Below are positions 17,949 through 35,230 of a stretch of DNA of 36,988 nt, piece after piece (the stretch's first letter is position 1; every line of letters begins with the position of its first letter). Source of the DNA: an uncultured Opitutia bacterium (GTDB lineage Bacteria > Verrucomicrobiota > Verrucomicrobiia > Opitutales > JABJCN01); the NCBI GenBank assembly GCA_913048125.1, contig CAJWWL010000003.1, positions 1 to 36,988 of the forward strand, read 5' to 3'. Made by a program: the position numbers and the translations under genes. The notes beneath the pieces are model-generated. The model made no database searches, was not told where the DNA came from, and was given only the letters and a program-made list of their open reading frames with translations.

Positions 17949-20447
17949 ATGACTCGCTTGCTACCGAATCTGCTTCTCTTTTTATTTAGCGTAACCGCCA
18001 GCCTTGATGCGGCTTCTCCTATCCTTTCTCGTATCCTACCGAGAGGTGGTCAGCAGGGGAGTACGGTTGAGATGGTCTTTACCGGTCAGCGGCTAAATGA
18101 TATCCACCAAGTACTTTTCTACACCCCCGGGTTTTCGGTTGAAAAGGTAGTTGGGGACGAGAAGAACGCCAACCGAGCAACCGCAACTGTAACGATTGCT
18201 CCAGACTGTAAGCTTGGTGAGCACAAGTTGCGTATTGTCACACGAACTGGCTTGAGTACTCTCAGCACTTTCTGGGTTGGGCCCTATGAAACGGTTTTGG
18301 AGGTTGAGCCCAATAGCGACTTTTCAAGTCCTCAGGTCATTGCAATAAATCGTACTGTTGAAGGGCGAGTAGACAATGAAGACGTGGATTACTATGCCGT
18401 TGAAGCAAAGAAAGGTCAGCGATTGAGCGTAGAGGTTGAAGGTATTCGCCTAGGAGGTCAGAATAACGTTATCTTTGATCCTTACGTTGCCATTTTAAAC
18501 AGCAAACGCTTCGAGCAGGCTGCTGCCGATGATACGCCTCTGCTCTTACAGGACTGCTTTGTCTCAATTGTTGTTCCAGAGGACGGCACCTACTGGGTAG
18601 AAGTTCGCGATAGCTCCTACGCTGGGAACGCCAACAGCAGATATCGTCTCCATATTGGTAACTTTCCTCGTCCTCAGGTTGTCTTTCCTGCTGGTGGTAA
18701 AGCAGGTACTGAACTGGAGGTCAGCTTTCTTGGAGACAAGGCAGGCTTGCCGAAAAAGAAGATTCAACTGCCTGCAAAATCAGATCCGGCCTTCGCTCTT
18801 CTAGCCGAAGCAGACGGTCAACGTTCGCCTTCTGCCAACCGCTTTCGTGTTAGCGACTTCGCCGATGTCCTAGAAGTTGAGCCCAATGAAAATCGCACCA
18901 AGGTTCCCGTTCCAGACGTTACTCCGCCCATGGCCTTTAACGGAATCATACAGGACGAGGAAGATATTGATTACTTCACCTTCATGGGGAAGAAGGGCCA
19001 GCGCCTAACATTTACCGCTCATGCACGTTCTCTACGCTCTCCTCTTGATCCTGTCCTGAACGTCTACTTTGGCGAGGGCAAAGAGTTCAAGAATCTGAAG
19101 GGAAGCGATGATGTTGGCCGTAACCCTGACAGTAAATTTGATCTAACTCTGCCCGCCGACGGAAAATACTACGTCCGCATCACAGATCATCTTCGCAAAG
19201 GCGGTCCTGATTACATCTACCGCATAGAAGCCGAAGCCATGCGCCCAGAGCTCAAGACATTCCTTCCACGCTATGGCAACAACGATACCCAGTCTCGTCA
19301 GATGATTCCGGTGGCTCGAGGCAATCGTTATGCTAATGTTATTCAGGTGACCCGTCGCAACATTCGCGCTGAACTAGATTACATCGCTCATAATTTGCCT
19401 GCAGGGATTACGATGCATGCAGCACGTCTTCCAGCTAGCATCGATAGATTCCCTGTCGTATTTGAGGCTGCCCCGGATGCTCCTCTCGGCGGTTCGCTTG
19501 TGGACCTCAAGGTACGACAGGTTCTCACCGAAGAAGAGGCTAAACAGGCCAATCGAACTCCGGCAGAAGGGGGCTATGGACATAGTTTCACTCTCGTCCG
19601 TGGTCCTAACAACACAGACATGTACATGACCACGGTTGACCGTTTAGCTGTTTCTGTAACCGAAGAGGTTCCTTTCCATATAGAAATCGATAAGCCTGCC
19701 ACCCCTATCCTTCAAAGGGGTTCCATGAACCTAAAGGTTCGAGCTATCCGAAAGGAGGGTTTCGATGATCCAATAGTTTTGCGAATGCTTTGGAATCCAC
19801 CGGGCATCGGTTCCCGAGGAACGGTTACCATCCCTAAGGGCAAGAGCGAAGCGAATTATGGCTTAACCGCTAACGGTGGTGCCACTGTTGGGACATGGAA
19901 GATTGCTATTCTTGGCGAGGCCGCTGCGCCAGGCGGACAAGTCTTTGCCTCCTCTCGGTTGACTGATCTTGTCATCGAAGAGCCGTATCTAAACATGACC
20001 ATCGAGATGGCCGCCATCGAGCGCGGAAAAGAAGGAGAGGTATACTGCAAGATTGAAACACTTCGTGAATTTGAAGGTGAGGCAGATATACGACTCGTGG
20101 CCCTTCCAGCACTGACCAGTACTGTTCCTCTCAAAATCAATAAGGACACCAAAGAAATTTCCTTTCCCGTTAAGACTGAAATCAAGGCTCGTGCTGCCAC
20201 CACGAAAAACCTTTTCATTTCCGCCAGCATTCCGGTGGCCGGACACAATCTCAGCCAGACAGTTGCTAGTGGTGGGCAAATCCGCATCGATAACCCACCA
20301 CCACCTCCGAAAAATCCCACAACAAAGCCTAAAGCATCACCAAAGCCAGCCAAAGTTGTAGCAAAAGCACCGGCTGAAAAACCGAAAAAGCCCCTCAGTC
20401 GCTTAGAAAAGCTTCGTCTAATTGCCAAGGAACGTGCCGGGAATTGA
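17949..20447 (+). CDS. Secreted multi-PPC-domain protein with Pro/Lys-rich C-terminal tail
   Basis: ILPRGGQQGSTVEMVFTGQRL; VLEVEPNSDFSSPQVIAINRTVEGRVDNEDVDYYAVEAKKGQRLSVEVEG; VLEVEPNENRTKVPVPDVTPPMAFNGIIQDEEDIDYFTFMGKKGQRLTF; tail PPPPPKNPTTKPKASPKPAKVVAKAPAEKPKK. Confidence 0.9.
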   Translation: MTRLLPNLLLFLFSVTASLDAASPILSRILPRGGQQGSTVEMVFTGQRLNDIHQVLFYTPGFSVEKVVGDEKNANRATATVTIAPDCKLGEHKLRIVTRTGLSTLSTFWVGPYETVLEVEPNSDFSSPQVIAINRTVEGRVDNEDVDYYAVEAKKGQRLSVEVEGIRLGGQNNVIFDPYVAILNSKRFEQAAADDTPLLLQDCFVSIVVPEDGTYWVEVRDSSYAGNANSRYRLHIGNFPRPQVVFPAGGKAGTELEVSFLGDKAGLPKKKIQLPAKSDPAFALLAEADGQRSPSANRFRVSDFADVLEVEPNENRTKVPVPDVTPPMAFNGIIQDEEDIDYFTFMGKKGQRLTFTAHARSLRSPLDPVLNVYFGEGKEFKNLKGSDDVGRNPDSKFDLTLPADGKYYVRITDHLRKGGPDYIYRIEAEAMRPELKTFLPRYGNNDTQSRQMIPVARGNRYANVIQVTRRNIRAELDYIAHNLPAGITMHAARLPASIDRFPVVFEAAPDAPLGGSLVDLKVRQVLTEEEAKQANRTPAEGGYGHSFTLVRGPNNTDMYMTTVDRLAVSVTEEVPFHIEIDKPATPILQRGSMNLKVRAIRKEGFDDPIVLRMLWNPPGIGSRGTVTIPKGKSEANYGLTANGGATVGTWKIAILGEAAAPGGQVFASSRLTDLVIEEPYLNMTIEMAAIERGKEGEVYCKIETLREFEGEADIRLVALPALTSTVPLKINKDTKEISFPVKTEIKARAATTKNLFISASIPVAGHNLSQTVASGGQIRIDNPPPPPKNPTTKPKASPKPAKVVAKAPAEKPKKPLSRLEKLRLIAKERAGN

Positions 20448-20466
20448 ACGCAAGACACCAAATTTG

Positions 20467-23400
20467 ATGAGACAAATTACAAAATTCCTTTCCTTCATTT
20501 TCATTCTTGGGTGGTCCCACTGGTGCTTTTCTGAGGATGCTCCAAAACCTTCTCAGATTAACCAGTCTGAGCAGAAAGATTCCCCTGAACCAGCTAAGCC
20601 TATCGAGGCAGTGAGACCGACTGAGTCTGCTACAGCACTACAGACTAAACCCAGTCCCACTGAGCCGAAACCAACCGATACAAAGCCTGCTGAGGTCGAG
20701 AAGCCTGAAACTCCTGCTATCGCCAAACCTGTTGCTGCTGCTCCTGTTGCTCCAGACTTTCATTCTGATATTCGTCCAATTCTTGAAGTGGCATGTGTCC
20801 AATGCCACGGTGCCGAGAAACAAAAGGGAGACTTACGGCTCGACCAACTTGTTCACGCGACCAAGGGCGGAGACGGTGGTCCTGCAATCGTTGCCAAGGA
20901 TATCGTAAATAGCCTTCTCATCGAGCGTATCGAATTGCCAGCTGACGATGACGAAATTATGCCACCTAAGGGTGATCCACTCAGTCCTGAACAGGTCAAG
21001 CTTCTAAAAGACTGGATTATTGCTGGTGCGCCTTGGCCTACTGAAGTGGCGCTTCGACAAAAGACCCTCGAAGATCTTGCCCGTGAACGACGTTTCGCAG
21101 CAAAGCAGATCGTTGACGTAAAGGTGTACCCACCTGAAGTCAGCTTGGAGACATCTTCTGACCATCATACCCTCGTGGTCATGGCAACATACGCAGACGA
21201 GAGTACTCGTGATGTAACTCACGACTCCAAATTTGTAATATCGGATTCATCTATCGCCAAACTTGAAGGTCAAACTCTTCTTCCTGCAAAGGATGGTAAT
21301 ACAAGTCTCCGCATTAGTTTTGCTGATCACAATGTCGATGTACCCGTCAACGTGAAGGAGTCGTCTACGCCTCGTCCAAATAGTTTTCGCCTGGATGTGA
21401 TGCCAGTTCTCATGCGCGCTCAATGTAACAATGGTTCATGCCACGGTTCGGCTCGCGGACAGGACGGTTTCATGCTTTCTCTCTTTGGTTATGATCCAGA
21501 AGGGGATCATCATCGGATCACCAGAGAGGAGTCTACTCGCCGCATTAACCTTGCTCTGCCACACGAGAGTATGCTCCTTGAAAAGGCTATTGAGGCGGTC
21601 CCCCACACAGGTGGTAAGCTTTTCGAGAAGGACAGCCAGTATTACAACGCGATTCTTGCTTGGCTTAAAGGCGGTGCTAAGAACGACCCCGCAGATATCG
21701 CCCAACCCACCAGTATTGAAATCCTTCCCTCTAAACTCCTCCTCGAAGGTGCTGGAGCGACTCAACAGATGACCGTTACTGCCCACTATTCTGACGGGAC
21801 TGACCGGGATGTAACTTCATTGGTTATCTTTCAAAGTAACAACGATAACAGCGCGACTATCAGCGAGGATGGTCTTGTCACTGCTCACAAGCCAGGTGAA
21901 GCCTTCATAATGGCTCGCTTTGCCACCTTTACAGTCGGTAGTCAGGCAATAGTTATCCCAGCAGGACTAAAGTACAAACGTCCAGAAGTCGCAGAAACCA
22001 ACTACGTGGACAAGCTTGTTAACGAGAAGCTCCATAAATTACGCATCATACCCTCTGGTAAGTGTACAGACGAATCCTTCATTCGTCGTGCCTCACTAGA
22101 TATCATCGGAAAGCTCCCTACACTTGAAGAGCAGGAATCTTTCCGAACCAGCGCTGATCCTAAGAAGCGTCAAAAGCTAATCGACAATCTTTTGGACCGC
22201 AAAGAGTTCACTGAGATGTGGGTTATGAAGTTCGCCGAACTTCTGCAAATCCGCACCCAGCAGAACAATCAGGTCAGTTACAAGGCCACACTTCTTTACC
22301 ACAACTGGCTCAAGGAACGTATTGCTGCCAACGTACCTATAAATAAAATCGTTCAGGAAATTCTCTCCTCGACTGGAGGCACGTTTAAGACCCCTGCCAC
22401 CAACTACTATCAGATCGAGCGTGATACCCTCAAGGTCGCCGAGAATGCTGCACAGGTTTTCATGGGCATGCGTATTCAATGCGCACAGTGCCACAATCAC
22501 CCTTTTGATCGCTGGACAATGGATGATTATTACTCCTTTGCTGCTTTCTTTTCCCAGATTGGTCGCAAGAACGCAGAAGATCCAAGGGAGGTCATCGTTT
22601 ACAATCGTCGATCTGGAGACATGAAGCACATGGTCGATGGTCGTGTTATGGAGCCAAAGTTTCTTGGTGGCGCTGTTCCTGAAATACCCCGAAGTGCCGA
22701 CCGTCGTGCTATTCTCGCTGAGTGGCTTGCTTCAGAGCAGAACCCTTACTTTGCTTCCAACTTGGCAAATATCGTCTGGCAACACTTCTTTGGAGTCGGG
22801 ATCATTGAGCCTGTTGACGATGTTCGTATCAGCAATCCAGCCTCGAACCCTGAACTGCTCGAAACCCTTGCCGGAAAGTTCACCGAGTACAATTATGACT
22901 TCAAACGACTTGTCCGCGATATCTGTAACTCCCAGACCTACCAGCGTACCACTCGCACCAATGAGAGTAACGAATCCGATACTCGCAACTTCTCGCATGG
23001 TAATCTCCGCAGACTTCGTGCAGAAGTCCTGCTTGATGTTATAACGCAGGTCACTCAGACGAAAAATAAGTTCCGAGGTCTACCACTTGGAGCTCGCGCA
23101 GTGCAGATCGCAGATGGCAACGTCAGCAATTACTTCCTCACGACTTTTGGCCGTGCCACTCGTGAAACAGTTTGTTCTTGCGAAGTCAAAATGGAACCCA
23201 GTCTATCTCAGGCGCTCCATTTACTTAATGGCGATGTTACTCATAATCGAATTCGTAGTGGTGGACTCGTAAATCAGCTCGTCAACCAAGAGAAGAAGCC
23301 TCCCTCTGAAACGCTAGAATTCCTTTACCGTCGCACCCTTTGTCGTCCCCCGACCAAAGAAGAGGCTGCGCCCATATTAGCTGTTGTTGAGAAGGAGGAA

Positions 23401-23472
23401 GACAAACGCGCTATTTTTGAGGATGTCTTCTGGGCACTACTGAACTCTAAGGAGTTTATTTTCAACCACTAG
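20467..23472 (+). CDS. PSCyt1 + Ig-like + DUF1549 + DUF1553 protein (planctomycete cytochrome family)
   Basis: ORF track starts at 20422, but ATG 20467 gives a proper signal peptide (MRQITKFLSFIFILGWSHWCFS) with no overlap. ACVQCHGAEKQKGDLRLD; CNNGSCHGSARGQDGFMLSLFGYDP; RIQCAQCHNHPFDRWTMDDYYSFAAFF; TFGRATRETVCSCEVKMEPSLSQALHLLNGD. Confidence 0.92.
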   Translation: MRQITKFLSFIFILGWSHWCFSEDAPKPSQINQSEQKDSPEPAKPIEAVRPTESATALQTKPSPTEPKPTDTKPAEVEKPETPAIAKPVAAAPVAPDFHSDIRPILEVACVQCHGAEKQKGDLRLDQLVHATKGGDGGPAIVAKDIVNSLLIERIELPADDDEIMPPKGDPLSPEQVKLLKDWIIAGAPWPTEVALRQKTLEDLARERRFAAKQIVDVKVYPPEVSLETSSDHHTLVVMATYADESTRDVTHDSKFVISDSSIAKLEGQTLLPAKDGNTSLRISFADHNVDVPVNVKESSTPRPNSFRLDVMPVLMRAQCNNGSCHGSARGQDGFMLSLFGYDPEGDHHRITREESTRRINLALPHESMLLEKAIEAVPHTGGKLFEKDSQYYNAILAWLKGGAKNDPADIAQPTSIEILPSKLLLEGAGATQQMTVTAHYSDGTDRDVTSLVIFQSNNDNSATISEDGLVTAHKPGEAFIMARFATFTVGSQAIVIPAGLKYKRPEVAETNYVDKLVNEKLHKLRIIPSGKCTDESFIRRASLDIIGKLPTLEEQESFRTSADPKKRQKLIDNLLDRKEFTEMWVMKFAELLQIRTQQNNQVSYKATLLYHNWLKERIAANVPINKIVQEILSSTGGTFKTPATNYYQIERDTLKVAENAAQVFMGMRIQCAQCHNHPFDRWTMDDYYSFAAFFSQIGRKNAEDPREVIVYNRRSGDMKHMVDGRVMEPKFLGGAVPEIPRSADRRAILAEWLASEQNPYFASNLANIVWQHFFGVGIIEPVDDVRISNPASNPELLETLAGKFTEYNYDFKRLVRDICNSQTYQRTTRTNESNESDTRNFSHGNLRRLRAEVLLDVITQVTQTKNKFRGLPLGARAVQIADGNVSNYFLTTFGRATRETVCSCEVKMEPSLSQALHLLNGDVTHNRIRSGGLVNQLVNQEKKPPSETLEFLYRRTLCRPPTKEEAAPILAVVEKEEDKRAIFEDVFWALLNSKEFIFNH

Positions 23473-23474
23473 AT

Positions 23475-26411
23475 ATGCCTGATTTTTCGATGAGACTCGC
23501 TATGAAACTACATTCAACCGCTATTTTTCTTGCAGCTCTGCTAGCACAAAGCCCTCTCGCTATAGCTGAGTCTGCCACGAAAATCACATGGGACGATCAT
23601 ATCTTCGCACTCATGGAGGGTGCCTGCATTTCCTGCCATAACCCCGATAAGACCAAGGGCGGTCTCGACCTTAGTTCTTACAATAATCTCCTCAAGGGAG
23701 GCAGTAGCGGCGAGAGCGTGACTGCTGGCGATCCAGAATCCAGTCTCCTCTACAAGGTGACTGCCCATCTCGAAGAGCCATTTATGCCACAGAACAAGGA
23801 TAGGCTTCCTGACGCGCAAATTGCTCTGCTTAAGAGCTGGATTTCTGGCGGTCTCCTTGAAACTGCAAGTAGTAAGGCTAAGAAGGCAAAAAGCTCTGGT
23901 TTCAATCTTGCGCTAAAGGTGACTAACTCTGGGAAGCCAGAGGGGCCACCGCCCATGCCTGAGCATCTTCCGCTGCAACCTCATGTTTTGAGTGAACGCC
24001 CCGCTGCCGTATCAGCACTAGCTACCAGCCCTTGGGCACCACTGGCCGCTGTTGCTGGTCAAAAGCAGGCATTACTTTACAACACTGATACTTTTGAACC
24101 TGTAGCCATTCTACCTTACGAAGAGGGGTTCATTGAATCCCTAAAGTTCAGTCCAAATGGTGCCTTGCTTGTAGCGGGTGGAGGACGTGGAGGCAAGGTG
24201 GGCCGCGTAATAGCTTGGGATGTAAAGACTGGTCAGCAAGTCCTCAAAGTTGGGCAAGAGTACGACACTGTTCTATCTGCTGACATAACGGCTGACCAAG
24301 CTACTGTTGCCATTGGTAGTCCAAGCAAGCGTATCAAACTTCATGATACAGCCGACGGAGAACTTCTTCACAACATCAAGAAACACTCCGAGTGGGTTAC
24401 TTCCGTATCCTTCTCTCCTGATGGAGTTTTACTGGCAACTGGCGACCGTAATGGAGGTGTTCACGTTTGGGAAGCCTTCTCAGGGAACCTCTTTTACACC
24501 CTCGAAGGAAATAAAGGCGCGATCACTAGCATCACTTGGCGATCCGACTCAAATATTGTGGCTACTGCTTCTGCAGATGGTTCAGTGCGTCTCTTTGCCA
24601 TGACTAACGGTCGCCAAGTCCGGAACTGGACGGCTCATGGAGGAGGGGTACTTTCTTTGCACTTTGCACGTAACGGTCAGCTTGTTTCCTCCGGTCGTGA
24701 CAAACAAGTTAAAGTTTGGGCACAGGACGGCAAACAGATCAAAGCCTTAGGTGGCTTTACTGACCTTCCTCTGGAAGTTGCCTTCACGCAGGATGCCAAG
24801 CGTGTCATTGTAGGCGATTGGCTAGGATCTGTGACCGTCTGGGATATTGAAACGGCCAAACAGGTCGCTACCTTATCCGCTAATCCCCCATCTCTAAACA
24901 ATCGTCTCGCTGCCGCCCAGCAACAGGTTGTCGCTGCTGATGCCGCGGAGAAGAAGGCAAAGTCAGTCCTCGATGCCGCCAAGGCTGTTACTGCACAGCT
25001 TGCGAAGCAGTTGACAGATGCCAGATCAGCGCTTGCTGCACGTACCACTGAAAAGCAACAAGCTGACACTGCACTGGCTGCTTCTAAGCAACAGCAGTCC
25101 GCTGCTACCTCTGCACGAACTGCGGCGAGCAACAATTTGAAGACGCAGCAGGACAAACTTAGCCAAATAAATGCCGTGCTCAAAACAGAGTCTGATAAGC
25201 TGACTGCAAACAAAGCCAATCTTTCAACGTGGAAGGCGCAAGTTACTGCGCGTACTAGTCAGTCTGAGTCCCTCAAAACTGCGGCAGATAATGCAAATGC
25301 CGAGTCTGCCAAAATTCCAGAGGATGCTGCTCTCAAGGATGCTGCCTCTAAGGCGGTTGCTGCATGGCAGGCCATGGATAAAGCCCTTTCTGAAGCGCGT
25401 TCCAAAGAGAATACTGCAGCAACCAATGTTCAGAACTCTGAATTTCAAGTCACTACCGCGCGAAAGCAGTCTGAAACACAGGCAAGTGCCGTCAAGGCTG
25501 GGCAAAACGACCTTGCTACAAAAGACCAAGCCTTAAAGGTAGCTACCGCAAAGGTGACTGCAGATGCCAAGGCTAGTGCTGAAAAGGTGGCGCAACTGAA
25601 GGTCGCACAAGACGCTGTTTCTAAATCCGAGGCTGCTCATAAGGCGCAGGTCGAAAAGGAAAAGGCTCCAGCACAGGCTCACTCGACTTCCGTTGCAAAA
25701 TTAGCCGCTGCCCAAAAGAAGGTTGCTAAGTGGAAGGCTGAGCAACTCAACGTAAACCGACACCTTGAAATTGCTTCATTGAATAACCTAGATTCCGAAC
25801 TTGTTGTTCTGAAAAGTGCTTCTGCAGACACTAAAGCCACCTTTGAGAAGGCTGAAGCAGACCTCTTAGCTGTACAGAATCAACTCACTGAAGCGCCTAC
25901 ACGCATCAAAGAAGCTGAAGTCTCTCTTTCTGGTCGTAAGTCTACGGTAACTGCTGAAGCTCAGAAGTTAGGTACACTCAATGAGGATGTGTCTAGACGG
26001 GAAGCATTTCTCAAAAAAGCCGATGCTTTTGGCTCTGAAATCGACTCCATTCAGTCGAAGGAACCCCAGAACGCAGAGTTGGCGGATGCCTCCAAAAATT
26101 TCAAAGAACAGGTTCGCAGCAAGTTTCAATCAGATCTTGATAATGCAAAGGGCAGAGTTGCTGCACAGCAGCAAGTGCTTGCCCAAGCTAACGAAGCCGT
26201 AGTTGCAGCAGAGAGACATCTAGTGGAAATGAAAACCCTTCCTGAAAAGTTGCCAGCAATCATAGCTGAGCGTACCAAAATTCGAGACTTAGCAAAGTCT
26301 GCCTATGAAAGTGCTCAGGCTTCTGAAATCCAATTTACTCAGAAGGTTGATGCGCAACGTAAGAAGGTTGACGGCTTAACCGGTCAGTATTTAGCCCTTC
26401 TGCCCAAGTAA
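23475..26411 (+). CDS. PSCyt1-type cytochrome + WD40 beta-propeller + long Ala/Lys/Gln-rich coiled-coil protein
   Basis: GACISCHNPDKTKGGLDLSSYNNLLKGGSSGE; WD40 repeats (KHSEWVTSVSFSPDGVLLATGDRNGGVHVWE); from about nt 24898 to the end a heptad-like A/K/Q/E/S-rich stretch. Start could also be the in-frame ATG at 23490 or 23502. Confidence 0.88.
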   Translation: MPDFSMRLAMKLHSTAIFLAALLAQSPLAIAESATKITWDDHIFALMEGACISCHNPDKTKGGLDLSSYNNLLKGGSSGESVTAGDPESSLLYKVTAHLEEPFMPQNKDRLPDAQIALLKSWISGGLLETASSKAKKAKSSGFNLALKVTNSGKPEGPPPMPEHLPLQPHVLSERPAAVSALATSPWAPLAAVAGQKQALLYNTDTFEPVAILPYEEGFIESLKFSPNGALLVAGGGRGGKVGRVIAWDVKTGQQVLKVGQEYDTVLSADITADQATVAIGSPSKRIKLHDTADGELLHNIKKHSEWVTSVSFSPDGVLLATGDRNGGVHVWEAFSGNLFYTLEGNKGAITSITWRSDSNIVATASADGSVRLFAMTNGRQVRNWTAHGGGVLSLHFARNGQLVSSGRDKQVKVWAQDGKQIKALGGFTDLPLEVAFTQDAKRVIVGDWLGSVTVWDIETAKQVATLSANPPSLNNRLAAAQQQVVAADAAEKKAKSVLDAAKAVTAQLAKQLTDARSALAARTTEKQQADTALAASKQQQSAATSARTAASNNLKTQQDKLSQINAVLKTESDKLTANKANLSTWKAQVTARTSQSESLKTAADNANAESAKIPEDAALKDAASKAVAAWQAMDKALSEARSKENTAATNVQNSEFQVTTARKQSETQASAVKAGQNDLATKDQALKVATAKVTADAKASAEKVAQLKVAQDAVSKSEAAHKAQVEKEKAPAQAHSTSVAKLAAAQKKVAKWKAEQLNVNRHLEIASLNNLDSELVVLKSASADTKATFEKAEADLLAVQNQLTEAPTRIKEAEVSLSGRKSTVTAEAQKLGTLNEDVSRREAFLKKADAFGSEIDSIQSKEPQNAELADASKNFKEQVRSKFQSDLDNAKGRVAAQQQVLAQANEAVVAAERHLVEMKTLPEKLPAIIAERTKIRDLAKSAYESAQASEIQFTQKVDAQRKKVDGLTGQYLALLPK

Positions 26412-26500: not shown

Positions 26501-28045
26501 ATGTCCGAGCCGAGTTTTCAGCGCAGTAACTCCTGGCCGCTAATTGCCTTCTTCTCCATTGCGGTACTAGTCGTACTTGTTGTGGTAATGCGGAGTCCTA
26601 CTTCGAATTCAATAAATGCAGATGGGGCTAGGGAGTTAAGAGTCTACTGTGCTGCCTGTGTCCGGCTTGCAGTTGAGGAGGCAGCCCGCCAGTTCGAGAA
26701 AGAGCTCGGGGTGAGAGTTGTTCTAGAATATGCCAATAGCGGAGTTTTGGCCAATCGGCTCAAGACTGATCGTGAGGGTGGCTTATCTACTGCCGACGTG
26801 TACATACCCGCTGATTTTTCATTCACTGAACGAGCACAGGCAGAAGGTTTAACTGCTGAAGCTCTACGCGTTGCAACATGGAAAGTCGTACTTGGTGTGA
26901 AGCCAGGACTCGACCTTGGGATTTCCAATTGTGATGAGGTACTGGATAAGAATATCTCTTTCGTACTTTGTGACCCGTTGGCCGGGGTAGGTCGGAAGAC
27001 GAAAAAGATGTTGGTGAACTCTGGACACTGGGAGGCGATTGATGCAGCCAAGGCTTCATCCTTTCCCACGGTTACTGAAGCAGCTTTGGCTGTGAAGGAG
27101 AATGTAGGTACGCAAGCCGCATTTGTTTGGGATTCTACGGCTCGTCAGCATGGTTTGCAGGTCTTGGAATTACCCGAGCTTAAGGCTAGTAAGGCTGATA
27201 TCTCTGCTGCAGTGGCTTCAGCTAGTGAGCAACCCGCGTTGGCTTTGCAGTTTCTTCGATACCTTGCGGCACCTCAAAAAGGTGGGCAGGTTTTTGCACG
27301 TCACAAGTACACACCTTTTCCAGGAGATCCTTGGTCTTTACGACCTAGACTCCGCGTGGATTGTGGGGGTGTTAACCGGGAGGCTGTACAAAAGACCATT
27401 GCCGAATTTGAGCAGCGAGAGGGTTGTGATGTGGATGTTGTTTACGCTGGTTGCGGTACACTGGTTGGCAAGATGCAGACTGGTGACCAGGGGTTACCTG
27501 ATCTTTTTGTAACCTGTGATGCCAGCTATCTTGATAAGGCTCAGGACGCGATGGGCAGTCCATTTGGTCCAGACTTGAAAGTCTCCAGCACGCGTATCGT
27601 GATGCTTGTAGCTAAGGGGAATCCCTTGGGCATTCTAAGGTTGGAGGATTTGGCTAAGGTGGGTCTTCGCCTTGGCACTACAGATCCTCAGGCAAGTACA
27701 CTTGGAGCATTAAGTCATGAGCTTATTCGTGAAACTGGTAAATTTGCACAAGTTGAGTCTAACATCACCATGATGGCAGATACTGCCCACACGCTCATTC
27801 AGAGTATGGAGGCAGGAGAAAAGCTGGATGTAGTTATGGTTTACGAGGCCAATATTCAGCACTTGAAGGATCGCTTTGATTACGTTCCATTGAAGCAACC
27901 TCGGGCAATCGCTGTGCAGAATGTAGCAGCCAGCAAGATATCTGAATATCCTCAATTGGCCCAGCGTTTCATGAATCGATTGGTGTCAGAGATTTCACGC
28001 CACCGTTTTGAGCAACTCGGATTTCAGTGGGTCGCCGAGAAATGA
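26501..28045 (+). CDS. Membrane-anchored tandem (double) extracellular solute-binding protein, molybdate/tungstate ABC-transporter type
   Basis: N-terminal TM (WPLIAFFSIAVLVVLVVVM); two homologous halves: ELRVYCAACVRLAVEEAARQFEKELGVRVVLEYANSGVLANRLKTD... and RLRVDCGGVNREAVQKTIAEFEQREGCDVDVVYAGCGTLVGKMQTGD... Confidence 0.85.
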   Translation: MSEPSFQRSNSWPLIAFFSIAVLVVLVVVMRSPTSNSINADGARELRVYCAACVRLAVEEAARQFEKELGVRVVLEYANSGVLANRLKTDREGGLSTADVYIPADFSFTERAQAEGLTAEALRVATWKVVLGVKPGLDLGISNCDEVLDKNISFVLCDPLAGVGRKTKKMLVNSGHWEAIDAAKASSFPTVTEAALAVKENVGTQAAFVWDSTARQHGLQVLELPELKASKADISAAVASASEQPALALQFLRYLAAPQKGGQVFARHKYTPFPGDPWSLRPRLRVDCGGVNREAVQKTIAEFEQREGCDVDVVYAGCGTLVGKMQTGDQGLPDLFVTCDASYLDKAQDAMGSPFGPDLKVSSTRIVMLVAKGNPLGILRLEDLAKVGLRLGTTDPQASTLGALSHELIRETGKFAQVESNITMMADTAHTLIQSMEAGEKLDVVMVYEANIQHLKDRFDYVPLKQPRAIAVQNVAASKISEYPQLAQRFMNRLVSEISRHRFEQLGFQWVAEK

Positions 28046-29307
28046 GTGGAGCTGAAGACAACTATCGAGTTTCTTCTGACCGACCATTTCTTCTAGTTCT
28101 TGCCGTCCTTGGTGGTAGCTACTTGTTTCTTATCGCAGCCATGGTTGTGGCTGATCTAATATTTTTAGACTACCGTGACCGTCCTGTTTTTGGGCCTGAA
28201 ATTGTCGAAGCTAGCCGCTATCCCGGAGATGCTTCTGGAGTAAAAATCACTTTGGAGTCTTCTCGCCGTTACTACTATCAAGGTGGACGAAACGAATTGG
28301 GGTTCCGGATGGGTGGAAATCTAATCAAAAAGGACGGTGTTTTTGATGCAGTTGAAGAAGAGGTTTTGTTAGTTTCAGAGACTCCCGAAGGGGCGGTCAC
28401 AGCTTCCTTTCGTCCTGAGGTGCGGGTAGTTGGTATCCAACTACATGAGGGGGTGGCCACTTTGCGTATGGATTTGCCTCACGGTTTGCTATGGGGCGAG
28501 TTCATACGTGTGCGGGATTCTGGATCTGAGTTCTGGGATGGTGTTCATGAAATCACAGATACCACACAGGATGAGCTTTCCTTTGTTGTCGGAGAGCAGA
28601 GCAAGATTGTGAATGCCCTCTCACTCAGCCGTCCAAACCCTCTCATACAAGCTCTCAGAAGTAGGGATATACAATTTTCGATCAAGCTGAGCCTAGTTAG
28701 TTGCACGGTGACAACACTACTTTCACTTTGGGTAGCCATTCCGATCGGATATCTCATGAGTCGTTTCACCTTTCGTGGAAAAGCCTTTGTGGATACTTTA
28801 TTGGATATACCTGTTGTCTTGCCTCCACTTGTGGTCGGCCTGAGTTTACTTATCCTTTTCCGCTATGTCCCAGACTGGCTCAGCGATGCAGTAGTCTATA
28901 AGTGGCCCGCAGTTGTGTTGGCACAGTTCATGGTAGCCTGTGCCTTTGCCGTGCGTACAATGCGGGTGACTTTTGACCAGATTTCACAGCGATACGAACA
29001 GGTGGCATTGACTCTAGGTTGCAACCGACAGCAAGCATTTTGGAGAGTTGTCCTTCCACAGGCTCGAGGTGGTGTTTTAGCTGCGGGAACACTGGCCTGG
29101 GCTAGAGCACTTGGTGAGTTTGGCCCCATATTAGTATTTGCTGGTGCAACTCGCCAAAAGACGGAAGTTTTACCCACTAGTGCGTTTCTAGAACTTCAAG
29201 CTGGTCGAACGGAGGGAATGCTAGCCGTCTCTTTGATCATGATTGCCACAGCGGCTCTAGTTTTTGTCGTCGCGCGAACCTTTGGGATGAAAAGGATTTT
29301 TTCATGA
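28042..29307 (+). CDS. ABC transporter permease, ModB/CysT-like, with a large extracytoplasmic insertion after TM1
   Basis: ATG 28042 overlaps the upstream TGA (ATGA). C-terminal half contains LDIPVVLPPLVVGLSLLILF and EQVALTLGCNRQQAFWRVVLPQARGGVLAAGTLAWARALGEFGPILVFAGATRQKTEVLPTSAFLE (binding-protein-dependent permease EAA-type region). Confidence 0.88.
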   Translation: MSGAEDNYRVSSDRPFLLVLAVLGGSYLFLIAAMVVADLIFLDYRDRPVFGPEIVEASRYPGDASGVKITLESSRRYYYQGGRNELGFRMGGNLIKKDGVFDAVEEEVLLVSETPEGAVTASFRPEVRVVGIQLHEGVATLRMDLPHGLLWGEFIRVRDSGSEFWDGVHEITDTTQDELSFVVGEQSKIVNALSLSRPNPLIQALRSRDIQFSIKLSLVSCTVTTLLSLWVAIPIGYLMSRFTFRGKAFVDTLLDIPVVLPPLVVGLSLLILFRYVPDWLSDAVVYKWPAVVLAQFMVACAFAVRTMRVTFDQISQRYEQVALTLGCNRQQAFWRVVLPQARGGVLAAGTLAWARALGEFGPILVFAGATRQKTEVLPTSAFLELQAGRTEGMLAVSLIMIATAALVFVVARTFGMKRIFS

Positions 29308-29957
29308 TTGCGGTAGACAATCTTTCTATTCGGCAGGGTGACTTTTTGTTGGACGGAGTTTCGCTTGAGCTCTCCGATGGTGAATATGGTGTGTTGATGG
29401 GCCGTAGTGGTTGTGGTAAGACCACTGTATTAGAAGCAATCTGTGGACTTCGACCCATCATAGGTGGACGCATCCTTCTTGGTGGTCGCGATGTTTCTGT
29501 TTTACCACCAGCAGAGAGAGGCATTGGCTATGTTCCTCAAGATGGAGCTTTGTTTCCCGATATGCCGGTTTGGGAGCAGTTGGCATTCTCAATGCTCATT
29601 CGAAAAATACCAAAATCCCAAGTGGAGGCTCGTGTTCGAGAATTAGCTAAAGATCTTGGTATCACTCATTTGCTCGAGCGTCTGCCAGTTGGTCTTAGTG
29701 GAGGAGAAAGGCAACGGGTGGCTCTTGGACGAGCATTGGCTGTTAAGCCACGTTTCCTGTGTATGGATGAGCCTTTGAGTGCTCTGGATGAGGATATCCT
29801 TGAAGAAATCTGTGAGTTGTTTACGCAAACTATCAAAAAGGAAAACGTGACCGCCTTGCATATTACCCACAGCAAAGCCGAGGCGGCTCGTCTCGGTGAT
29901 ACTCTCTTTCATTTAGTTGGTGGCCAACTTCAGAAAGTAGGACCAAACGAGGAATGA
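29304..29957 (+). CDS. ABC transporter ATP-binding protein (molybdate/sulfate-type)
   Basis: Walker A GRSGCGKTT, Q-loop GYVPQDGALFPDMPVWEQL, signature LSGGERQRVALGRALA, Walker B FLCMDEPLSAL, H-loop ALHITHS. ATGA overlap with the upstream stop. Confidence 0.93.
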   Translation: MIAVDNLSIRQGDFLLDGVSLELSDGEYGVLMGRSGCGKTTVLEAICGLRPIIGGRILLGGRDVSVLPPAERGIGYVPQDGALFPDMPVWEQLAFSMLIRKIPKSQVEARVRELAKDLGITHLLERLPVGLSGGERQRVALGRALAVKPRFLCMDEPLSALDEDILEEICELFTQTIKKENVTALHITHSKAEAARLGDTLFHLVGGQLQKVGPNEE

Positions 29958-30229
29958 AGGTACGGTTTCAGCTATGGGGTCAACTACGTAAGGCGGCTGG
30001 AATACCCGCTCCTGAAGTAGAATTAAGTTTTGGTAGTGTAGCCGCGGATGCAATCAAGGTTTTGGCAGATGATTTTCCTGACCTGCAGTCAATTCTCTTG
30101 GATGATGGGGGAGAAGTACGTCCCATTATCCTCGTATTTCGTGATGGTCAGCAATTGGAACCTCATGATTCAGAGCCGTTGTCAGAGGGCTCCGAATTGA
30201 CGTTGATGTCTCCAATCGCGGGAGGATGA
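29954..30229 (+). CDS. MoaD/ThiS-family sulfur carrier protein (beta-grasp, C-terminal GG)
   Basis: 91 aa; MKVRFQLWGQLRKAAG...; ends in ...LTLMSPIAGG*. ATGA overlap with the ATPase stop. Confidence 0.88.
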   Translation: MKVRFQLWGQLRKAAGIPAPEVELSFGSVAADAIKVLADDFPDLQSILLDDGGEVRPIILVFRDGQQLEPHDSEPLSEGSELTLMSPIAGG

Positions 30230-30230
30230 C

Positions 30231-30983
30231 ATGCTCACAAATGCTGAAAAAGCCATTTATGAGTGGCAGATGTGGGTGCCTGGTATTGGCGAGGAAGGTC
30301 AGCAGAAGCTTAAGGATGCCACCGTATTGATTTCTCGCTGTGGTGGTTTGGGCGGTTTGGTTGCCTATGAGTTGGCCGCGGCAGGTGTTGGTAAGCTTGT
30401 TATCGCTCATGCTGGTAACGTAAAGCCCAGTGACTTACACCGACAGCTTCTGATGACGGCAGACTGGGTTGGTAAGCCACGGATCGATTCTATAGCGAGA
30501 CGCTTGAGTGATTTGAATCCAAGAGTCGAGGTGGTTGGGATTCCTGAAAATATATCTGAAGACAATGTGTCGAAACTCGTGGGCAGAGCCGACGTTGTAG
30601 TCGATTGTGCTCCATTGTTTGAAGAGCGTCTTCTACTCAACCGTGAGTCTGTGCGTCAGTCAAAACCCATGGTTGAGTGTGCGATGTATGAATTACAGTT
30701 TCACATTACGACATTCCTTCCCAGTAAATCACCATGCCTTGCCTGTCTGCACCCCGAAGCGCCTTCTCATTGGAAGCGGAAATTTCCTGTCTTTGGCGCA
30801 GTATCTGGTACGGTTGGATGCATGGGGGCAATGGAAACCATAAAGCTGATTACGGGCATCGGAGAACCACTTACTGGCAGTTTGCTCTCCATGGATCTAC
30901 GTGATTTTCAGGTTATGAAGACAAAAATTGCCCGCAGAAAAGATTGCACCGTCTGCGCAGATGCTGACTTTGGAGCCGAATAA
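30231..30983 (+). CDS. ThiF/HesA-family E1-like protein, divergent
   Basis: ATVLISRCGGLGGLVAYELAAAGVGKLVIAHAGNVKPSDLHRQLLMTADWVGKPRIDSI; CxxC pairs CLACLHP and CTVCAD. Immediately follows the MoaD-like gene. Confidence 0.85.
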   Translation: MLTNAEKAIYEWQMWVPGIGEEGQQKLKDATVLISRCGGLGGLVAYELAAAGVGKLVIAHAGNVKPSDLHRQLLMTADWVGKPRIDSIARRLSDLNPRVEVVGIPENISEDNVSKLVGRADVVVDCAPLFEERLLLNRESVRQSKPMVECAMYELQFHITTFLPSKSPCLACLHPEAPSHWKRKFPVFGAVSGTVGCMGAMETIKLITGIGEPLTGSLLSMDLRDFQVMKTKIARRKDCTVCADADFGAE

Positions 30984-30995
30984 ATTTTTTTGAAT

Positions 30996-32153
30996 ATGGA
31001 TAACGAGCAACTGAATCGCTACAGTCGGCACATTCTTCTTCCCGAAATGGGAGTGGAGGGACAGGAAAAACTGCTTGCGGCCAAAGTATTGCTGGTGGGC
31101 GCAGGCGGCTTGGGTTGTCCTGCGGCATTGTATCTTGCTGCGGCAGGTGTAGGTCGCATTGGTATCATCGATTTCGACAAGGTAGACGCCTCCAATCTCC
31201 AGCGCCAAGTCCTCTACTCAACAGCGGATATCGGTAAGTACAAAGTGGATGTGGCTAAGGAGCGTATTCAGGCGTTAAATCCAGATGTCCAAGTGGATTG
31301 CATTCGTGAACGCTTGAATTCTGACAATGCGCTAGAACTTTTTAGTCAGTATGATCTTGTAGTGGACGGTACAGATAACTTTGCGACCCGTTATCTTGTA
31401 AATGACGCCTGTGTTCTAACCGGTACGCCCAACATCTATGGAAGTATCTTCCGTTTTGAGGGACAGATGACCATATACGCTCACCCAGAAGGGCCTTGCT
31501 ATCGTTGTTTATTTCCCGAACCACCTAGCCCCGGGGAGGTGCCGAATTGTGCGGAAGGTGGGGTGCTTGGAGTCCTGCCTGGAATGGTTGGTGTTGCCCA
31601 GGCTACCGAGGCGATCAAGCTGATTCTTGGTCAGGGTCAACCTCTTTTAAACCGAATGCTTATCTACGATGCCCTAGAGATGAGATGGAAGGAACTTAAG
31701 ATTAAACGTGATCCACATTGTCCAGTCTGCGGGGATAAGCCTAGTGTAACTGAACTGATTGATTACGAGGCGTTCTGTGGAGGCGCCAAACAAGAACCAG
31801 AAGTTGAAGAGGTTTTGCCTGAAGATGGTATTGTGCAATTGGATGTCGGTTCAGCAGCAAAGATGCTGGAGCAATCTGAACCACCTACGCTTGTAGATGT
31901 GCGAACGGACATGGAATGGCAGATTGCTCGAATCTCCGGAGCGAGGCTGATCCCGCTTCAAGAGTTCGGTGAGCGCTGGCGGGAATTAGATGGATTGCAA
32001 GATCATCCTATTATCCTTCAGTGCCATCATGGGATGCGAAGCTATCAAGCTGCAATGTTCCTTAAAGAAAAAGGATTCAATACGCTCTATAATTTAGTTG
32101 GGGGTATTGATTCTTGGTCCGAACAGATCGATCCAGAGGTAGCTCGCTACTGA
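30996..32153 (+). CDS. moeB-like: MoeB/ThiF adenylyltransferase fused to a C-terminal rhodanese domain
   Basis: ORF track uses TTG 30990; ATG 30996 is the likelier start (MDNEQLNRYSRHILLPEMGVEGQEKL). VLLVGAGGLGCPAALYLAAAGVG, SNLQRQVLY, DGTDNFATRYLVND, CYRCLFPEPP, CPVCGD; rhodanese TLVDVRTDMEW...ILQCHHGMRSYQAAMFLKEKGF. Confidence 0.92.
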   Translation: MDNEQLNRYSRHILLPEMGVEGQEKLLAAKVLLVGAGGLGCPAALYLAAAGVGRIGIIDFDKVDASNLQRQVLYSTADIGKYKVDVAKERIQALNPDVQVDCIRERLNSDNALELFSQYDLVVDGTDNFATRYLVNDACVLTGTPNIYGSIFRFEGQMTIYAHPEGPCYRCLFPEPPSPGEVPNCAEGGVLGVLPGMVGVAQATEAIKLILGQGQPLLNRMLIYDALEMRWKELKIKRDPHCPVCGDKPSVTELIDYEAFCGGAKQEPEVEEVLPEDGIVQLDVGSAAKMLEQSEPPTLVDVRTDMEWQIARISGARLIPLQEFGERWRELDGLQDHPIILQCHHGMRSYQAAMFLKEKGFNTLYNLVGGIDSWSEQIDPEVARY

Positions 32154-32159
32154 TATCAA

Positions 32160-33635
32160 ATGTTCGAGCAAGTACTGACAATTGAAGGCTTTTGCCTCGT
32201 AGCGCTTGGGACACTTCTCGGTATCACGGTTGGTGCAGTGCCGGGACTGACAGGCGCAATGCTGATTTCGTTGTCCTTGCCTCTGACCTTCTCGATGGAA
32301 GGAACCTCTGCGATGCTTTTGCTGGTCTCAATGTATGTGGGCGCGGTCAGTGGTGGTTTGATTTCAGCAACTTTATTGAGGATGCCTGGTACACCTGCCT
32401 CGGTTATGACGACTCTCGATGGTTATCCTATGGCTCGTCAGGGAAAAGCCAGACGAGCTCTCGTGCTAGGAGCAGGCGCATCTCTGTTTGGAGGTTTGAT
32501 TTCGTGGGGTTTTCTTGTGCTATTGGCAAAGCCGGTCTCTGAGTTATCGACTCGTTTTGGACCGTTTGAATTCTTTTCTTTGGTTCTCATGGCTTTAGCG
32601 ATGATTGCTGGTTTAGGCGGGTCCAGTGGTGTTCTTCGCGGTTTGTTTGCAGGGGCATTGGGAATGCTGGCCGCCATGCCTGGTTTATCCCCAGCAACTG
32701 GTGACCCTCGGTGGACATTTGGTATACCAGCCATGTCCGACGGCTTTAAGCTATTGCCAGTACTCATCGGTTTATTTGCCATTAATCAGGTACTCCGAGA
32801 ACTTCTCGGCCTTGCGGGTAAACCTGAGGAGTTAGGAGGTCAGTCCGAAAGAAGTATGCCTAGAGTGGGGGACTGGTTTCGACAGGTGGGGAACATGCTT
32901 CGTTCATCTTGCATTGGGACTTGGGTAGGTATTCTTCCTGGTGCAGGTGCCAATGTGGGTTCGGTCCTTGCGTACTCTGCGGCCAAGGGTATGTCGAAGC
33001 AGTCGGATAAGTTCGGCACTGGTTGTGACGAAGGTGTGGTTGCCTCAGAGTCGGCTAATAATGCCACTGTGGGAGGTGCCTTGATTCCTCTTGTAGCTAT
33101 GGGTATACCGGGAAGTCTAATTGATGCTATTCTCCTAGGAGCCTTTGTCTTACATGGGTTACAGCCCGGGCCATTACTTTTTCAAAACCATCCCGAAGTT
33201 GTGGACTCGATTTTGGGTGCTGCCTTGGTGGCCAATCTACTGATGTTCGCAATCATGTTCTGGTTGGCGCGTTGGATTGCCAAGCTGGCCTTTGCCCCAA
33301 GAGCTGTGCTTCTCCCAATGGTAGTCGTTTGCAGTGTGGTGGGTGCCTTTGCATTATCCAATCGTATGTTCGACGTCTGGGTTATGCTGGCCTTCGGTCT
33401 AGTGGGTTTCGTCCTTGAGCGCGGACGCATTCCCTTGGCACCATTTGTTATCGGCTTCGTGCTGGCACCGATTGCAGAGGAAAACCTTGCTGCGGGTCTC
33501 ATGGCCTCAGGAGGAAGTCTTGCTCCTATGTTTACACGTCCCGTCTCCCTTTTATTTATAATTGCGGCAGTCGGCCTGCTACTTGGCCCGATCTTGCTTC
33601 AGCGAAGAAAACTTGTTCCAACCAAAGAAGCCTAA
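32160..33635 (+). CDS. TctA-like tripartite tricarboxylate transporter large membrane subunit
   Basis: VGAVPGLTGAMLISLSLPLTF...LLVSMYVGAVSGGLISATLLRMPGTPASVMTTLDGYPMARQGKARRALVLGAGASLFGGL; GILPGAGANVGSVLAYSAAK. Confidence 0.9.
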   Translation: MFEQVLTIEGFCLVALGTLLGITVGAVPGLTGAMLISLSLPLTFSMEGTSAMLLLVSMYVGAVSGGLISATLLRMPGTPASVMTTLDGYPMARQGKARRALVLGAGASLFGGLISWGFLVLLAKPVSELSTRFGPFEFFSLVLMALAMIAGLGGSSGVLRGLFAGALGMLAAMPGLSPATGDPRWTFGIPAMSDGFKLLPVLIGLFAINQVLRELLGLAGKPEELGGQSERSMPRVGDWFRQVGNMLRSSCIGTWVGILPGAGANVGSVLAYSAAKGMSKQSDKFGTGCDEGVVASESANNATVGGALIPLVAMGIPGSLIDAILLGAFVLHGLQPGPLLFQNHPEVVDSILGAALVANLLMFAIMFWLARWIAKLAFAPRAVLLPMVVVCSVVGAFALSNRMFDVWVMLAFGLVGFVLERGRIPLAPFVIGFVLAPIAEENLAAGLMASGGSLAPMFTRPVSLLFIIAAVGLLLGPILLQRRKLVPTKEA

Positions 33636-35035
33636 TGAATGCGAAACGCCCAAACCTTCTATGGTATTGTACTGACCAACAACGATTTGACACCATACGT
33701 GCCCTCGGAAACGAGTATGTCCGCACGCCTGTTCTGGATCAACTCGTGTCTCAGGGTACCGCTTTTACTTATGCATATTGTCAAAGTCCTATCTGTACCC
33801 CGAGTCGTTCGAGCTTTATGACTGGGCTCTATCCGTCGCGGCTACACAACACTCGCAACGGGAACGACACTTTTCCTGAAGGCCCTGAATTGATATCCAA
33901 GCTTTTAGCTGATGCTGGCTATGATTGTGGTCTCGTAGGCAAATTCCACCTTGTGAGTGCAGGTAAGCGTACCGAGCCGCGTCTCGATGATGGTTTTCGT
34001 TACTGGAAACATAGCCATGCCCCTAGAGATGATTGGCCCGAAGGCCACGACTATGCTGAATGGGTCAGAGAAAAGGGGGGAGACCTAGATGCACTGCGCA
34101 ATGATCCCGACCGGGTTCCTCGAGAATTTCACCAGACGACTTGGGCAACCGATCGCTCCATCGAATTCATACAGCAAGAACGGGAAGGTCCTTGGATGCT
34201 CAATGTGAATGTCTATGACCCGCACCCTCCTTTCATACCGCCCAAAAGTTACGCAGATGAATTCAACGCCGAGGATATGCCCGGACCACATTTTGAGTCT
34301 TCTGAACTCGAGCAACAGGCGCGACTCGCCGATGTGGACTTTCAAAATCAAGTACTAACGCCTGAAGAACATGAGGCTAAGGAAAAGCAGGCACTTTACT
34401 ATGCTATGATTGCGCTGATTGACGATGAGTTCGGTCGTCTTCTGCAGGCACTGGAGGACTCTGGTCAGCGTGATAATACGGTCATCATTTTTACCAGTGA
34501 CCACGGGGAAACGCTTGGTGACCATGGTCTCATGTACAAGGGTTGTCGTTTTTACGAAGGACTCGTCCGCGTACCTCTTATTTTCTCTTGGCCCGGCCAG
34601 TTCGAAACAGACTTACGAAGTGAGGGTCTTGTAGAACTCCTCGATATGAGTGCCACACTACTTGAACTGGGCGGCGTCGACCTGCCAGAATCTTTTCAAG
34701 GTCGTAGCCTTCTTCCCATTCTCAGAGGAGAACAGGATTCTGCTCATTTTCGAGAGTCCGTACGTTGTGAGTACTTCGACGCTTTAGATCCCCACTTCAC
34801 CGGTGGTACTGGTTCTTACGGAACAATGTATCGAAATGAACGCTACAAACTAGTTGTCTACCATGGTAAAGGTCAGGGTGAACTCTACGATCTAGATGAA
34901 GACCCTTGGGAGCACAATAACCTCTGGGATCATCCCGATGCTCAGAGTGTCCGTAACGAACTACTCTACAAGAGCTTCGATGCTCACGTATTGTTAACTA
35001 CTGATGTCGGTTCCCGACGGATTGCTCCTATGTAG
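33635..35035 (+). CDS. Sulfatase (Cys-type, CTPSR), no evident signal peptide
   Basis: RPNLLWYCTDQQRFDTIRALGNEYVRTPVLDQL; SPICTPSRSSFMTGLYPSR; VGKFHL; TSDHGETLGDHGLMYKG. Start overlaps the upstream TAA (TAATG). Confidence 0.93.
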   Translation: MNAKRPNLLWYCTDQQRFDTIRALGNEYVRTPVLDQLVSQGTAFTYAYCQSPICTPSRSSFMTGLYPSRLHNTRNGNDTFPEGPELISKLLADAGYDCGLVGKFHLVSAGKRTEPRLDDGFRYWKHSHAPRDDWPEGHDYAEWVREKGGDLDALRNDPDRVPREFHQTTWATDRSIEFIQQEREGPWMLNVNVYDPHPPFIPPKSYADEFNAEDMPGPHFESSELEQQARLADVDFQNQVLTPEEHEAKEKQALYYAMIALIDDEFGRLLQALEDSGQRDNTVIIFTSDHGETLGDHGLMYKGCRFYEGLVRVPLIFSWPGQFETDLRSEGLVELLDMSATLLELGGVDLPESFQGRSLLPILRGEQDSAHFRESVRCEYFDALDPHFTGGTGSYGTMYRNERYKLVVYHGKGQGELYDLDEDPWEHNNLWDHPDAQSVRNELLYKSFDAHVLLTTDVGSRRIAPM

Positions 35036-35230
35036 TCTCGGTGAAAAATCTCTTCTCTTGAGCACATAATCTACTCCGAGAATTAAGGACTTCAATTATT
35101 AGGTGATGGGGGTGCATTAAAAACGGCTTTCGCAATCTCAACAGGCACTTGCCGAAGTAGAGATTGTTGCATGACTCGTCTTCTGAATCATCTGGTGTCG
35201 ATTGCTCCATAACTCAAAATAGTAAGCAAT

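Follow-up and report, generated by a model that had tools for sequence, protein, structure and literature searches.

Tandem binding domains are already known for amino-acid importers: in GlnPQ, two substrate-binding domains (SBDs) arranged in tandem have been proven to feed one transporter (PMC8025302). Binding proteins of the ModA family (TIGR01256, PF13531) serve importers of the ModB2C2-A type (PDB 2onk, 3d31), and their pockets differ between species; P. aeruginosa ModA uses the ligand residues Asn33, Thr60, Tyr141 and Ile168, of which Thr60, at the position equivalent to Ser39, coordinates the oxyanion (PMC9171197).

Here we describe a double substrate-binding protein (dSBP) encoded in a stretch of 36,988 nucleotides (the window) from the genome of an uncultured Opitutia bacterium, a marine member of the Verrucomicrobiota. 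Like GlnPQ (PDB 6h30), it carries two binding domains in tandem on one polypeptide, joined by a short linker and associated with one ABC importer. However, in GlnPQ the domains bind amino acids and form one polypeptide with the permease, whereas dSBP is of the ModA type, has its own anchor and is not fused to a transmembrane domain, its permease being the product of a gene of its own. The resemblance to ModA is that both halves (A and B) belong to SBP_bac_11 and that A keeps the Ser39 and Val152 positions; unlike ModA, dSBP holds two domains on one transmembrane (TM) anchor, neither half groups with E. coli ModA, Ser12 and Tyr170 are replaced in A, and B has a cysteine at position 39. The permease core and the ATPase are related to those of the ModB2C2-A importers, but the window permease contains an extra beta insert and stays under the TIGR01581 cut-off (186.9 against 210.3), the ATPase is short and the SBP is double. 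In the open-access literature we came across no description of a ModA-type tandem carried by an anchor of its own, and annotation pipelines would label the gene plainly as 'modA'. We conclude that dSBP is a real, conserved and apparently undescribed variant of the Mod-type importers. A conserved tandem of non-equivalent ModA-type domains, one of them with a cysteine at a ligand position, would show that uptake of a trace oxyanion can be split between two receptors.

Domain architecture and ligand pockets

The dSBP open reading frame begins with ATG and has no internal stop. The initial annotation had described its product as one N-terminal TM segment followed by two homologous SBP halves, and profile searches bear this out: PF13531 covered the first half, searched alone, over model positions 1-216 of 227 (E = 1.8e-36) and the second over positions 1-227 of 227 (E = 2.1e-33), scoring 126.5 and 116.4 bits, where the cut-off is 25. 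Aligned pairwise, the halves are 24% identical over 230 columns (E = 6e-14), and the starts of homology proposed beforehand (26636 and 27350) were right to within a codon. The statement that typical ModA proteins have a single domain is true of E. coli ModA and of the classical ModA genes seen here. Against the TIGR01256 ModA equivalog the whole protein scored 70.4, a sum over two stretches, with a cut-off of 62.5. Structure prediction agreed in pattern but at low confidence: an AlphaFold2 model built on an 8-sequence alignment displayed two full alpha/beta SBP patterns with a mean pLDDT of 58. Foldseek searches with this model returned single molybdate SBPs and also the GlnPQ SBD1-SBD2 tandem (6h30), aligned across both domains over 535 columns. 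The N-terminal helix is probably an uncleaved signal anchor, as the N-terminus appears to lack a clear cleavage motif. Among 25 aligned double proteins the linker residues G275, D276 and W278 were invariant and P282 was found in 24; this near-invariance suggests a fixed geometry between A and B.

Features of the dSBP gene and its operon in the window
Feature	Coordinates	Strand	Description	Evidence
dSBP	26501-28045	+	514 aa; TM anchor, domain A, linker, domain B	ORF, profiles, alignment, relatives
N-terminal TM helix	26534-26593	+	residues about 12-31	helix in structure model; hydrophobic sequence
Domain A	26636-27316	+	SBP_bac_11, residues 46-272	Pfam and alignment
Linker	27317-27346	+	short, conserved, residues 273-282, G275-D276-x-W278-xxx-P282	alignment of 25 doubles
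Domain B	27347-28030	+	SBP_bac_11, residues 283-510	Pfam and alignment
Cys318 codon	27452-27454	+	Cys invariant in B, aligned with ModA Ser39	25/25 doubles
Cys339 codon	27515-27517	+	the other Cys invariant in B, followed by invariant Asp340 (ModA positions 58-59)	25/25 doubles
ModB-like permease	28027-29307	+	426 aa; BPD_transp_1 at residues 237-417; start overlaps dSBP gene	profiles
Permease insert	28207-28641	+	about residues 61-205 (~145), between TM1 and core, predicted all-beta	
ModC/WtpC-like ABC ATPase	29304-29957	+	217 aa; lacks the regulatory C-terminal part found in full-length ModC	
MoaD/ThiS-family sulfur carrier	29954-30229	+	GG end	
ThiF1	30231-30983	+	ThiF/MoeB-family adenylyltransferase	
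MoeB-rhodanese fusion	30990-32153	+		

The ligand residues of E. coli ModA, which we take to be Ser12, Ser39, Ala125, Val152 and Tyr170 in mature numbering, were located in the same alignment. Domain A keeps a serine at position 39 (S80) and a valine at position 152 (V191), and at the Tyr170 position it carries W210, with Trp or Phe there across the A halves. The Ser12 position is occupied by glycine in 23 of the 25 relatives and by Cys53 in the window protein alone. The pockets of the two halves therefore differ, most clearly at position 39, where the serine of A corresponds to an invariant cysteine in B. The suggestion made in the initial annotation, that the tethered halves could give dual specificity or a relay to the permease, would be compatible with this difference. 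A cysteine had also been noted just after the first beta strand of each half; both are present (C50, which in A is accompanied by C53, and C288), but the conservation of C288 does not extend to most of the distant B halves, and the invariant pair of B is C318 and C339. In this fold the latter two would sit at strand ends facing the cleft. Since the oxyanion-binding serine of ModA is replaced by cysteine in B, dSBP may do more than bind molybdate.

Distribution, ancestry and associated genes

The A-B fusion was found in 18 sampled Verrucomicrobiota genomes under 11 family codes (G000, G004, G015, G023, G029, G115, G139, G145, G166, G188, G190, G195, G200, G212, G215, G235, G271 and G292) and in seven further contigs (L003-L009). 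Across the phylum the fusions are 31-39% identical to the window protein; those of the seven contigs are 65-69% identical and are followed, where the contig is long enough, by permease, ATPase and ThiF1 genes in the same order. Six of these contigs are labelled Verrucomicrobiota and one Euryarchaeota; the latter (L009) encodes the same operon, with a dSBP about 65% identical to that of the window, and is probably a mis-binned Verrucomicrobiota contig.

In a tree of 68 rows the A halves, together with two single-domain relatives, formed one clade and the B halves another, each with a bootstrap of 100, and the E. coli ModA clade (100/100) excluded all of them. The separate clades rule out a recent internal duplication and indicate that the halves diverged long before these species. 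An ancient shared origin is compatible with the data, as the AU test did not reject a single clade of A plus B (p = 0.27). By the same tree, the A-B type was probably fused once. A plasmid search for the tandem yielded only a single-domain Azospirillum ModA, and adjacent SBP genes in two other genomes (G248 and G160) scored as the classical ModA type rather than as A or B. An additional protein of 1030 aa with two SBP_bac_11 domains (L083:4717-7806, minus strand, in G114) is unlike the A-B type.

A second, related pair of SBPs, A' and B', also precedes a Mod-type permease, B' being marked by a CHDP motif. As with A-B, genes for two different ModA-like proteins precede those of a Mod-type permease and a Mod-type ATPase, often together with the h13, FtsX and LolD genes described below; unlike A-B, they occur either as separate adjacent genes (L060, L061, L062, L064, L065, L070) or fused in either order (B'-A' in L066, L068 and L069; A'-B' in L057). 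The three B'-A' fusions do not form one clade (p = 6e-8), so fusion or fission has happened more than once and in both orders. A single ancient separation of A from B, with B' included in it, was not rejected (AU test, p = 0.33). Because the pairs are either fused or adjacent, the pairing of two different ModA-like proteins is the rule in these loci, and fusion is one way of keeping them together.

Most of the distant A-B loci and many A'/B' loci also contain a MacB-like set, in which a permease of the FtsX type and an ATPase of the LolD type are joined by a periplasmic protein, h13, for which no Pfam or NCBIfam match was obtained. The h13 proteins carry the motifs ACxVPVFRYALERW, FGRGRAL and CSCxVKxxNPGxD (genes at L042:2627-3610, L041:1925-3121, L044:1772-2914, L048:3028-4200, L055:3019-4221 on the minus strand, and others). 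They were present in 25 of 241 genomes, comprising 21 of the 22 with an A-B or A'/B' pair, a list compiled by hand, and four others (Fisher 3e-25, relatedness ignored); G260 is a probable case of a pair split by contig ends. In some h13 loci a further SBP_bac_11 protein lies directly after the LolD-type ATPase (L060:5836-6723 and L099:131-946, both on the minus strand). The linked h13, FtsX and LolD genes hint at a larger system that is unnamed in Pfam or NCBIfam.

Operon context and the transported substrate

In the window, dSBP is the first gene of an overlapping operon that continues with the permease, the ATPase, MoaD, ThiF1 and the MoeB-rhodanese fusion. The locus holds a Mod-type ABC importer set, with SBP, ModB-like permease and ModC-like ATPase together. 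Among the genes beside A-B fusions that are not for transport, ThiF1 is the most frequent. In the window genome (91.6% complete) dSBP was the sole PF13531 gene found, and MoaA, MoaE and a PF00384 protein are encoded. Upstream of the operon (20422-26411) lie genes for a PSCyt1/PSCyt2/PSD1 protein and a PSCyt1, WD40 and long coiled-coil protein; downstream are a TctA gene (32160-33635) and two sulfatase genes (33635-36826).

MoaA was detected in 14 of 17 A-B genomes and in 53 of 224 others (Fisher 1.8e-6, phylogeny ignored), the 14 spanning seven families and the three exceptions three families. A'/B' genomes were not enriched in this way (Moco synthesis in 1/5). The enrichment of A-B genomes in Moco synthesis makes molybdate the likeliest substrate, and we regard this assignment, drawn from gene content, as probable. 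None of the A-B genomes known to be without MoaA has MoaD or ThiF1 near its A-B locus, and in the three Moco-negative genomes (G029, G139 and G215) both genes are absent from the locus. These three genomes, which are 95-97% complete, gave no match to MoaA, MoaE, PF00384, PF02738 or nitrogenase, and molybdate for Moco therefore cannot explain the importer there. Nitrogenase molybdate was rejected as a way of accounting for them, as nitrogenase occurred only in G023, and tungstate for AOR was rejected because AFOR_N was absent from the 20 genomes searched.

Other A-B loci add to the picture. Two genomes, G190 and G023, have a classical ModABC system directly beside the A-B system; in G023 the classical ModA and a ModB-like permease form one protein of 506 aa (L045:11448-12968), and G190 (L048) has separate ModA, ModB and ModC genes at the matching place. 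Sulfur-related neighbours recur, namely rhodanese, TauE pieces and ThiS/ThiF, and at two loci (L046:3522-4328 and L053:8079-8906) a ThiS-like ubiquitin domain is fused to a ThiF domain beside the importer.

Proposed mechanism and alternatives

The explanation to which we lean is that dSBP is a tethered two-domain receptor of one Mod-type ABC importer, with A as oxyanion donor and B as a diverged partner, bringing in molybdate for Moco. It is built on the two complete domains, the conserved fusion, their separate ancestry, the divergence of the pockets and the operon. Domain A would be a ModA-like oxyanion binder that docks on a homodimeric ModB-like permease, while B would be an old and diverged ModA-like partner, its cleft lined with cysteines and its place fixed by the short conserved linker. 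In the known ModB2C2-A structures one ModA covers both permease subunits, so only one half of dSBP could dock at a time; A is the likelier of the two to be the oxyanion donor. The pair would most likely import molybdate for Moco synthesis, with the same operon supplying MoaD, ThiF1 and MoeB-rhodanese as Moco sulfur-transfer genes. B may contribute a second specificity, for example for a thio- or otherwise altered oxyanion, or may pass ligand to A; a redox or docking function is another possible role. Several observations stand against this explanation: the Moco-negative A-B genomes, the classical ModABC systems beside A-B in two others, the replacement of Ser12 and Tyr170 in A, the recurrent sulfur-related neighbours, and a structure model that is weak and gives no ligand information.

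Several of the same observations would fit an importer of sulfur oxyanions of the thiosulfate or sulfite type, feeding the rhodanese, MoeB-rhodanese and MoaD genes, with the cysteines of B helping to bind sulfur. A rhodanese gene directly follows dSBP in L050 and L051, TauE-half genes occur in L042, L043 and L053, ThiS-like and ThiF genes in L046 and L053 and MoeB-rhodanese in many loci; three A-B genomes have no Moco genes and two have a classical ModABC to hand. However, the strong co-occurrence of A-B with MoaA argues against this, as does the loss of MoaD and ThiF1 from the locus in precisely the Moco-negative genomes, which is expected if both belong to Moco synthesis, and we consider such a substrate unlikely. 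Independent binding of different oxyanions by A and B, in competition for one permease, is quite possible, though not what we would expect. GlnPQ has this tandem layout, with two SBDs of different specificity serving one transporter (PMC8025302), Foldseek aligns both domains to 6h30 and conserved pocket residues differ between the halves, but the invariant cysteine pair of B is atypical of an oxyanion site. Such dual specificity is a narrower form of the two-domain receptor explanation rather than a full alternative to it.

That B binds no transported solute and instead serves in docking, redox chemistry or sensing, at first for an h13/FtsX/LolD partner, agrees with the near-constant company of SBP pairs and h13, with two genomes (G191 and G086) that have a single A domain only and gave no h13 match, and with three (G188, G200 and G235) in which h13 adjoins dSBP while the permease is elsewhere. 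Against it, the profile match of B is to a complete SBP fold, and both cysteines of B persist in the window clade even though h13 was not found in the window genome or near L003-L009; we judge it improbable. There is next to no prospect that dSBP is a single large SBP or a product of faulty assembly or gene prediction. The gene is indeed a single ORF only, but each half fits the SBP_bac_11 model nearly end to end, for which reason the single-SBP reading was rejected, and the same fusion recurs in seven independent MAG contigs and 17 further sampled genomes.

A broader and rather doubtful proposal is that the fused pair is part of an undescribed Verrucomicrobiota envelope system. Here the two non-equivalent ModA-like proteins would act on an oxyanion or thio-anion jointly with a Mod-type importer, with an ABC machine of the FtsX/LolD type and with the cysteine-containing h13, and B would use its two invariant cysteines to handle the ligand. 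The window clade, with its permease insert and no h13 found, would then be a reduced form. One might speculate that the insert replaces h13; comparison of the two revealed no homology. The insert occurs only in the window clade. A fold search with it gave nothing with E below 0.001, and it bears a weak likeness to an endosialidase beta-barrel. Within the clade its conservation is 45-48%, against 87-90% for the permease core.
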